Shown here: piece by piece, positions 10,841 through 31,368 of the stretch | How the letters are laid out: the number at the start of each line of letters is the position of its first letter | Numbering within the stretch: the first letter of the stretch is position 1 | Origin: Deltaproteobacteria bacterium | GTDB taxonomy: Bacteria > Desulfobacterota > Syntrophia > Syntrophales > UBA2192 | Assembly (NCBI GenBank): GCA_012728915.1 | Contig: JAAYEC010000048.1 | Span: 1-40,945, forward strand | DNA length: 40,945 nt | Direction: 5' to 3' | Position numbers and translations under genes: made by a program | Notes under the pieces: generated by a model | Told to the model about the DNA's origin: nothing | Databases searched by the model: none | Seen by the model: the letters and a program-made list of their open reading frames with translations, nothing else

Positions 10841-11665
10841 CTAGAACTTCCGTTTGAACGTAGCGCTGATTGTCTGGTTGTCCCTGACGCCGGAGAAGGT
10901 GTACGACCTGACCGCCCCCACGGAGACGCCGTTCACCTTGACGTCGTAGATCCTGTAAAGCCAGCCGGGCCTCACGGTGAACGTCTTGCTCGACCCGATG
11001 GCCACTGCAACCGAACCGGAGGGCGAGATGCTGCCGCCGGTCCCGGCCGAGCTCGTGATGGTTGCCTTTGCCGATGCGGCCTGCTGGCTCACCGCAAGGC
11101 TGCTGCCGGCGATCGTGATGCGCGCCGATCTGGCCGCGGCGGCCGTGTTGGCGGTCACGGAATAACCGACCGTCCCCGTCCCGGAGCCGCTCGCGCCCGC
11201 CGTCACGGTCAGCCAGGAGGCGGTGCTCGACGCGCTCCAGGGGCAACCCGCCTGGGTGGTGACCGTCACTCTTCCCGTCCCCCCGGAGGCGGCGAAGGAC
11301 TGGCTCGCGGGCGATATCGTGTAGGAACAGGCCGTGGCCGGCGCCGTGTAGGAGACTTCACTGGAGTACGCGCTCTCCTTGCCCGAAACGTCATAGGCCT
11401 TGCAGGCGAAGTAATACTTCCGCCCCGCCTCGAGGCCGCTGATGCTGACGCTGGTCCAGTTGCCCACATCGACCGTGCTGGGGTAGCTCCCGCTGGCCGT
11501 CCCGTAGCCGACCCTGTAGCCCGCCACGGTTGCTTCCCTGTTGGCGTCCCAGGCGAGCGTCACGTCGGCCGCAAGGGCCTGTCGGGCAAACCCGGTCAGG
11601 ATCAACAGGAAAAAAAAGGACAAAAAAAGTCTTTTTCGGAAGACGAGTCGCCTCGCAAGGCCCAT
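10841..11665 (-). CDS. Exported FN3 / BACON / beta-repeat protein
   Basis: 274 residues. A basic N-terminus and a long hydrophobic core (FLSFFFLLILTGFA) end at a signal-peptidase-like ARQALAA site. Next come a fibronectin type III domain (VTLAWDANREATVAGYRVGY, about 33-110), a BACON-like domain with CSYTISPASQSF and CPWSASSTASWLTV (about 115-200), and a C-terminal InlB-like beta repeat (about 205-274). BACON domains are linked to carbohydrate or surface binding. The ATG at 11665 was chosen because the signal peptide starts there and GGAG lies upstream. It is probably a cell-surface or periplasmic adhesin-like protein. Two further genes follow on the same strand. Confidence 0.8.
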   Translation of the reverse strand: MGLARRLVFRKRLFLSFFFLLILTGFARQALAADVTLAWDANREATVAGYRVGYGTASGSYPSTVDVGNWTSVSISGLEAGRKYYFACKAYDVSGKESAYSSEVSYTAPATACSYTISPASQSFAASGGTGRVTVTTQAGCPWSASSTASWLTVTAGASGSGTGTVGYSVTANTAAAARSARITIAGSSLAVSQQAASAKATITSSAGTGGSISPSGSVAVAIGSSKTFTVRPGWLYRIYDVKVNGVSVGAVRSYTFSGVRDNQTISATFKRKF

Positions 11666-30195: not shown

Positions 30196-30225
30196 TTGAC
30201 ACAACGGGGCAACCTGTGGTTAACT
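30196..30225 (+). promoter_or_regulatory. Sigma-70 promoter of the Trp-leader / porin unit
   Basis: A perfect -35 TTGACA at 30196-30201, then 17 bases to GTTAAC (30219-30224) or 18 to TTAACT (30220-30225). The predicted start of transcription is near 30231, about 23 bases before the leader peptide ATG. Confidence 0.65.
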
Positions 30226-30253
30226 GCATCCACTTTTTTCAAGGAAATCGACG

Positions 30254-30331
30254 ATGATGGCAGGGCAGGCGCGCATTCATTCTATCGGCTGGTGGTGGGC
30301 CGGCAGCAGCTCGCGGGTCTGCCCATCGTAA
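30254..30331 (+). CDS. Leader peptide with three consecutive Trp codons
   Basis: 25 codons, MMAGQARIHSIGWWWAGSSS and five more residues, then TAA. AAGGAA lies eight bases before the first ATG (30254); the second ATG at 30257 is equally possible. The TGG TGG TGG run abuts the first arm of the leader hairpin, the placement expected of an attenuation peptide. A random 25-residue frame would rarely hold three Trp in a row at that spot. No stable protein is expected. Confidence 0.65.
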   Translation: MMAGQARIHSIGWWWAGSSSRVCPS

Positions 30332-30361
30332 CGTGCCGGCCGTAAGGCAACGGGTGAAAGC

Positions 30362-30400
30362 AAGCCATGGGTGGATCGGAAACCGCCCATGGCTTTTTTT
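30362..30400 (+). terminator. Attenuator terminator hairpin ahead of the porin gene
   Basis: A 10-bp perfect stem AAGCCATGGG (30362-30371) / CCCATGGCTT (30386-30395) with a 14-base loop and seven T (30394-30400). It stands 74 bases before the porin ATG with no complete gene before it on this strand since 28.9 kb, other than the leader peptide. Confidence 0.85.
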
Positions 30401-30474
30401 CTGCAGGCTGCGGGGGCGGGGACCCGGCGGCCTTTTTTGATCGTGAAAAATCCCAGGAAGGAGGAAGCAGCGGT

Positions 30475-31368
30475 ATGAAGAAGCGGCAGTCATTCAGTCT
30501 GTGGGTCGTCGTCCTCGTTGCGGCGGCGGCGCTGGCGTCGCCGGCGCTCGCCACCGAGGGCGGCGGGGGGGCCTACCCGAACGGCGCGGAGGGGTTCATG
30601 GCCGGGGCGTTGCCGCCCCCGGGGACCTACTTCATCAACTACCTGACCTACTACACGGCATCGAAGTTCAAGGACAATAACGGCAATGATGCCCCCGGTG
30701 ATTTCAAGCTGAAGGTGGCGGCCGACGTTCTCCGGTTCGTCCACGTGACGAATTACAAGGTCCTCGGGGCCAACTGGGCCGTCCACGCCTTCATCCCGAT
30801 CGCCTACCAGGACGTGAGCGTCCCCGGCCGCGACGACGACCGGTTCGGGCTGGGCGACATCATCATCGACCCGATCATCCTCGGCTGGCACTCCCGGAAC
30901 GTCCACGTGACGGTGGGCCTCGACATCTACATCCCCACGGGAAGCTACAACAAGGACCGCCTGGCCAACATCGGCCGCAACTACTGGACCTTCGAGCCCG
31001 TCCTCGGCGTGACCTTCCTGAGCGACGGCGGCTTCGAGGTCTCGGCCAAGTTCATGTACGACATCAACACGGAAAACGACGACACGAAGTACCGGTCGGG
31101 ACAGGAGTTCCACGTGGACTACACCGTCGGCTACCACATCGGCAAGGAGTGGGCCGTCGGTCTCAACGGGTATTACTACCAACAGGTGACAGAGGATGAG
31201 AAAAACGGCAACGACGTGGGAAACAAGGGCCGGGTCTTCGCCATCGGGCCCGCGGCGCAGTTCAATTACAAGAACATGAGCTTCACGGCGAAATGGCAGC
31301 CCGAGTTCGAGGCGCGAAACAAGCCCGAGGGCAACAAGTTCTGGCTCAACTTCGTCTACGCCTTCTAG
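30475..31368 (+). CDS. Outer-membrane channel of the MetA-pathway/SphA type
   Basis: 297 residues. Signal peptide 1-26 (ending PALATEG). The mature start AYPNGAEGFMAGALPPPGTY is the hallmark of the Phenol_MetA_deg (COG4313, SphA-like) outer-membrane proteins, followed by amphipathic beta strands such as VHAFIPIAYQDVSV, HVTVGLDIYIPTGSY and a C-terminal NFVYAF ending in Phe, the usual signal for BAM assembly. These beta-barrels are thought to pass hydrophobic or aromatic compounds; the specificity here is unknown. GGAAGGAGG precedes the ATG by ten bases. It is the only gene downstream of the Trp-type attenuator. Confidence 0.85.
   Translation: MKKRQSFSLWVVVLVAAAALASPALATEGGGGAYPNGAEGFMAGALPPPGTYFINYLTYYTASKFKDNNGNDAPGDFKLKVAADVLRFVHVTNYKVLGANWAVHAFIPIAYQDVSVPGRDDDRFGLGDIIIDPIILGWHSRNVHVTVGLDIYIPTGSYNKDRLANIGRNYWTFEPVLGVTFLSDGGFEVSAKFMYDINTENDDTKYRSGQEFHVDYTVGYHIGKEWAVGLNGYYYQQVTEDEKNGNDVGNKGRVFAIGPAAQFNYKNMSFTAKWQPEFEARNKPEGNKFWLNFVYAF

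Follow-up and report, generated by a model that had tools for sequence, protein, structure and literature searches.

A putative tryptophan attenuator in front of an outer-membrane channel gene in a genus of Syntrophales

The tryptophan attenuators known so far act on biosynthetic genes, on TrpRS or, in some bacteria, on transport across the inner membrane. The classical examples, E. coli trpL and the trp leaders of other proteobacteria and of actinobacteria (PMC1262725), combine an ORF bearing a run of Trp codons with an antiterminator that competes with an intrinsic terminator, and the same combination is found at the locus described here. It differs from the classical leaders in its target, which is an outer-membrane channel and not trp biosynthesis or trpS, as well as in its annotated 1:2 hairpin, which is not conserved, in an antiterminator arm placed within the 3′ end of the leader ORF, and in the presence of tandem terminators. 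The S. meliloti rnTrpL/peTrpL system also has a short Trp-run peptide in front of an attenuator, but acts on its additional targets in trans (PMC7298713), whereas the non-trp target of our locus lies in cis. Our search of the open literature turned up no Trp attenuator acting on an outer-membrane protein; the mechanism is known, and the target is apparently new. The features that set this locus apart are the channel as its target, a pair of terminators in tandem, an antiterminator arm that falls within the leader ORF, and persistence of the leader in a genome devoid of trp genes.

The locus lies in a stretch of 40,945 nt (hereafter, the window) of contig JAAYEC010000048.1, assembly GCA_012728915.1, from a Deltaproteobacteria bacterium (Syntrophales; UBA2192), one of a group of anaerobes that are uncultured. 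The genome (G000) comprises 2.79 Mb with a completeness rating of 100%, and its close relatives are Syntrophaceae/Syntrophales MAGs. A first-pass annotation of the window had proposed that an outer-membrane channel is under Trp attenuation, and the comparison of the elements, their reading frame, conservation and alternative pairings supports this proposal. Judging from the sequences compared, ribosome-mediated transcription attenuation in response to charged tRNA-Trp very probably governs a single outer-membrane channel gene here.

The leader and its conservation within the genus

All the elements listed in the first-pass annotation were found, in order, in the sequence 30196-30477, along with a second terminator that was absent from its list. 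The main features are as follows:

30196..30225, + strand: promoter seen in the sequence, with TTGACA at 30196-30201, an 18-nt spacer and a weak -10 box TTAACT at 30220-30225
30257..30331, + strand: leader peptide ORF MAGQARIHSIGWWWAGSSSRVCPS, 24 codons from the conserved ATG, followed by the stop codon at 30329-30331; frame kept in 8 loci
30290..30298, + strand: Trp regulatory codons TGG TGG TGG; three or four TGG in every genus member
30316..30326, + strand: antiterminator 5′ arm GGTCTGCCCAT, lying across the last part of the leader ORF; shared by the porin leaders and those of DAHP synthase
30362..30400, + strand: intrinsic terminator 1 with a 13-bp stem and a U tract, identified by a terminator scan and conservation
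30367..30377, + strand: antiterminator 3′ arm ATGGGTGGATC, part of the terminator 5′ arm, pairing with 30316-30326
30405..30438, + strand: tandem intrinsic terminator 2, AGGCTGC...GGCGGCCTTTTTT, in all genus members
30475..31368, + strand: COG4313/Phenol_MetA_deg outer-membrane channel gene (PF13557), a single-gene unit whose product has 297 residues

The genus comparison covered seven genomes (that of the window and relatives including G001 to G006) with eight copies of the channel gene, which was present in 7/7 genomes; the other copies share 77-86% protein identity with that of the window. Each of the eight is preceded by a short ORF with a Trp run, whose predicted product has the form GWWW(W)...V(C/R)PS, as exemplified by MANRMGIRFLGWWWSDRRPSVCPS, MSGQMRIRSMGWWWRINGSVRVCPS and MPRLAHKNIFGWWWWANISAGVCPS. 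Outside these two motifs the leader codons drift freely, and where the Trp run has four codons in place of three, the indel is of a whole codon and leaves the frame intact. The three consecutive Trp codons reported at 30290-30298 are matched by three or four TGG codons in every genus member: when the orthologous leaders were aligned, as the first-pass annotation had suggested, Trp codons were retained in 8/8 copies, and no locus within the genus kept the porin while losing the Trp codons or the pairings, a pattern that had been named in advance as speaking against attenuation. Since the Trp run, the reading frame and the arms are conserved in eight loci, a chance origin is ruled out. The ORF had been described as a 25-codon leader; it is present in all eight loci, but its length and start had to be corrected, because the extra in-frame ATG at 30254 is absent from most relatives in the alignment and the conserved start, ATG 30257, gives 24 codons. 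A leader of this kind is missing from the more distant channel homologues found outside the genus, which reach 76% identity, so that the Trp leader is specific to the genus. In G003 there are two channel copies (G003:C21 and G003:C60), both preceded by a Trp leader of their own and both adjoining a divIVA copy; this pair may be a real duplication or two strains binned together.

The TTGACA box of the proposed promoter was confirmed at 30196-30201 and is kept in the orthologues wherever an alignment is possible; with its weak -10 box, the promoter was not called by a strict consensus promoter scan. In every genus member divIVA lies upstream and is transcribed divergently, and the promoter must therefore sit in the leader-bearing gap. 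The 74 nt between terminator 1 and the channel start codon hold the conserved terminator 2, which, together with the divergent divIVA, makes a separate channel promoter after 30400 unlikely. In a rival view, the leader would mainly give rise to a small RNA or peptide that acts in trans, as rnTrpL/peTrpL does, with the channel being read from its own promoter. Terminated Trp leaders can act in trans, as reported for peTrpL (PMC7298713), and two tandem terminators would yield a tidy small RNA. However, the leader stands directly upstream of the channel in 8/8 loci, the intervening 74 nt are already occupied, and the peptide is poorly conserved outside GWWW and V(C/R)PS, so we consider a mainly trans-acting leader very unlikely. 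A trans role may nevertheless exist in addition to the role in cis.

Competing RNA structures and the proposed switch

The antiterminator was assessed over 20 related leaders, with slid registers as controls. The 11-bp competing pairing proposed earlier was clearly present: 30316-30326 and 30367-30377 are paired in 98.6% of cells, versus 32-41% for the slid registers. The changes in the antiterminator arms are one-sided, the variation being too small for two-sided covariation, and the antiterminator is therefore described as conserved complementarity. Shuffles of its 3′ arm fail to distinguish the real arm. In every leader examined, the terminator arm pairs with the RNA upstream of it to a greater extent than in most shuffles: from 0 to 41 of 500 shuffles reach the real value, with 2/500 for the window's genome and 41/500 for the weakest leader.

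The channel gene is preceded by two intrinsic terminators in tandem. The first, already assigned to 30362-30400, was recovered both by the scanner and by conservation; it is formed in 96.2% of cells, and two of its pairs are changed on both sides. Terminator 2 carries a compensatory change of a G-C to an A-U pair in G004 and G006. In several leaders of this family, such as L091 (DAHP synthase), L160 (trpE) and L241 (Phe), the attenuator terminator is likewise followed by a second terminator-like hairpin. Of the three pairings in which covariation was to be sought, as recommended along with the alignment, the terminator shows pairs changed on both sides, the antiterminator shows conservation with one-sided changes, and the 1:2 hairpin is not conserved. 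The latter (30298-30305 with 30334-30341) does form in the window sequence, as had been noted, but it is paired in 41.7% of cells, near one of the slid controls at 35%, and was rejected as a conserved element. For the untranslated leader, a further structure was predicted:

30254..30329, + strand: candidate protector pairing of 30254-30259 with 30324-30329, enclosing weaker inner helices

This composite structure, which joins the start-codon region with the ORF end, is paired in 91.5% of cells; its outer helix overlaps the start codon, so that its conservation is weak evidence.

When a ribosome was modelled on the Trp codons, the antiterminator formed in the nascent RNA with a mean probability of 0.78-0.99 in 8/8 leaders; with the ribosome modelled at the stop codon, the antiterminator arm was covered, by construction. 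Without a ribosome, the predicted antiterminator probability ranged from 0 to 0.99 between species. In the full-length RNA at equilibrium the terminator was always preferred, even under the stalled-ribosome constraint. As the complete terminator is the more stable structure in every leader, the switch must be kinetic. Structure prediction and conservation together point to a mutually exclusive antiterminator that is freed by a stalled ribosome.

Most probably, the switch would operate as follows. Transcription would start downstream of the TTGACA promoter, and a ribosome would translate the 24-codon leader. With Trp-tRNA plentiful, the ribosome would reach the stop at 30329 and cover the arm 30316-30326, thereby allowing the terminator 30362-30400, backed by that at 30405-30438, to halt transcription before the channel gene. 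With Trp-tRNA scarce, it would stall on the Trp codons 30290-30298 and leave the arm free to pair with 30367-30377 in the nascent RNA, which would pre-empt the terminator so that the channel is made. We infer both the direction of the response, i.e., more channel upon Trp shortage, and the contribution of both hairpins to termination.

Related leaders in the order and the loss of tryptophan synthesis

The channel leader shares its core, GGTCTGCCC...AAGCCATGGGT(G/A)GATC...CCGCCCATGGCTTTTTT, with leaders that precede DAHP synthase (PF00793, PF18152). No Rfam family was matched at the gathering score anywhere in the window, the shared core included. A covariance model of this core was used to search 154 Syntrophales genomes and found matches in 141/154 of them. 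Two further types of leader carrying the core are represented, in the window's genome and in others, by:

L091 (G000:C5) 2604-2696: Phe/Tyr leader attenuator before DAHP synthase; same core, in many Syntrophales genomes
L241 (G000:C20) 483-556 (also L242, L244, L245 and L248): Phe-run leader before a Peripla_BP_6 protein; in several Syntrophales families

The DAHP-synthase leaders have the same arm GGTCTGCCC and a terminator core near-identical to that of the channel leader; they differ in their codons, being rich in Phe/Tyr (e.g., ...RYYYFYGQVCPSLRRT in the window's genome), in their biosynthetic target, and in their occurrence throughout the order. The third group, noticed among the matches inspected, has leaders with a Phe run (...FFAFFSFFGFFREVCP) that stand ahead of the gene for a Peripla_BP_6 periplasmic binding protein, and makes a candidate for a Phe-controlled uptake system. 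Of all the targets inspected, the channel of this genus alone has a Trp run together with the shared core. The common core suggests that the channel leader may have been derived from the DAHP-synthase type by codon exchange.

Across the order, trpE has its own Trp leaders with a different core, including those of G003 to G005 of the same genus, which indicates that this lineage uses Trp attenuation. Like the channel leader, the Syntrophales trpE leaders (e.g., MSKTILSKTSWWWRNFIGGVCLLPV in G005) possess a Trp run and a terminator with a second hairpin; unlike it, they control trpE, have another core sequence, and have been lost from the window's genome.

This loss extends to tryptophan synthesis as such. 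No match to TrpE (PF04715), TrpA (PF00290) or TrpC (PF00218) was found in the window's genome, despite its full completeness rating, and the organism is therefore a predicted Trp auxotroph. All three proteins are present in G003 to G006; the TrpC (IGPS) match of G003 is split in two (G003:C46:59632-60614), perhaps by a frameshift or an assembly error. The trp operon of G005 has shikimate-pathway genes on one side and a response-regulator gene on the other. These neighbours adjoin each other on a single contig of the window's genome, from which about 7 kb, with the trpE leader among them, are gone:

L157 (G000:C5) about 11498-11542: trp operon excision, from the trpE leader to trpA, relative to G005

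At this junction the trp operon has been cleanly excised. The genes trpE, trpA and trpC are absent from G001 and G002 as well; since these MAGs are incomplete (77% and 86%, respectively) and the G002 contig appears to end near the excision junction, we state only the absence of the genes for them. The channel gene tree poorly resolves whether the trp-less G000, G001 and G002 form one clade, so that one loss or several are both possible. Despite the lost operon, the window's genome keeps the Trp leader of the channel; in a pattern search, which can miss others, it was the only Trp leader recognised there.

Given that the trp operon is gone from this genome, the element might be viewed as a functionless relic, left when a trp operon was lost or relocated, that came to stand before an unrelated gene. 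Against this, G003 to G005 carry the trpE leader in its own place together with the channel leader, the latter is nearer to the DAHP-synthase type, and although the sequences have clearly diverged, they retain the Trp codons, the frame and the pairings. We therefore rejected an origin as a trp-operon remnant, which we regard as extremely improbable, and return to a working attenuator of the channel gene.

The channel and its putative substrate

The product of the gene had been named a MetA-pathway/SphA-type outer-membrane protein encoded 74 bases downstream of the terminator, and the profile match (PF13557, E 7e-81) as well as the predicted structure agree with this. The AlphaFold model is a beta-barrel with 13 strand segments (pLDDT 87.7), and its best Foldseek match among solved structures is 4RL8 (Pput2725), with TM 0.79/0.87, so that both the profile and the modelled barrel, resembling the 12-stranded one of 4RL8, place the protein in COG4313/PF13557. 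It has its fold and family in common with the COG4313 channels Pput2725 (4RL8), SphA and TcpY. We know of no COG4313 channel under amino-acid attenuation.

The COG4313 family has been implicated in the uptake of hydrophobic and aromatic molecules, and the compounds with which its characterised members have been associated are trichlorophenol, sphingosine and other hydrophobics (PMC4493636). These substrates, and the fact that no inner-membrane transporter of the Trp_Tyr_perm family was found in the genus, leave considerable room, if somewhat less than an even chance, for a real attenuator on a channel that serves another purpose, such as hydrophobic entry or export, with Trp charging being used as a general starvation signal. 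On the other hand, three or four Trp codons with no other regulatory run speak for a Trp-specific need, the retention of the leader in a trp-less genome is in keeping with scavenging, the COG4313 family typically has aromatic substrates, and the transporter search covered Trp_Tyr_perm only.

A Trp leader on the channel, kept even where the trp genes are missing, thus suggests that the channel probably serves the scavenging of Trp or a related compound. Candidate substrates are Trp, indole, a precursor and Trp-containing peptides; the chances that the channel helps take up tryptophan, an aromatic precursor or a Trp-containing compound seem to us about equal to those that it does not. More tentatively, the whole locus can be pictured as a dedicated entry for Trp, or for a Trp-yielding aromatic compound or peptide, whose attenuator arose from the Phe/Tyr type by codon exchange and which in the trp-less species would be the remaining identified Trp-responsive attenuator.

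If this is true, a switch of biosynthesis now runs nutrient scavenging. The attenuator offers a concrete substrate hypothesis for a large family of channels, few of whose substrates are known. One attenuator design is spread, within a single order, over a gene of synthesis (DAHP synthase) and candidate uptake genes (the Peripla_BP_6 protein and the channel). The trp-less genome that keeps the switch provides a natural test of whether attenuation can be redirected from the synthesis of an amino acid to its scavenging.
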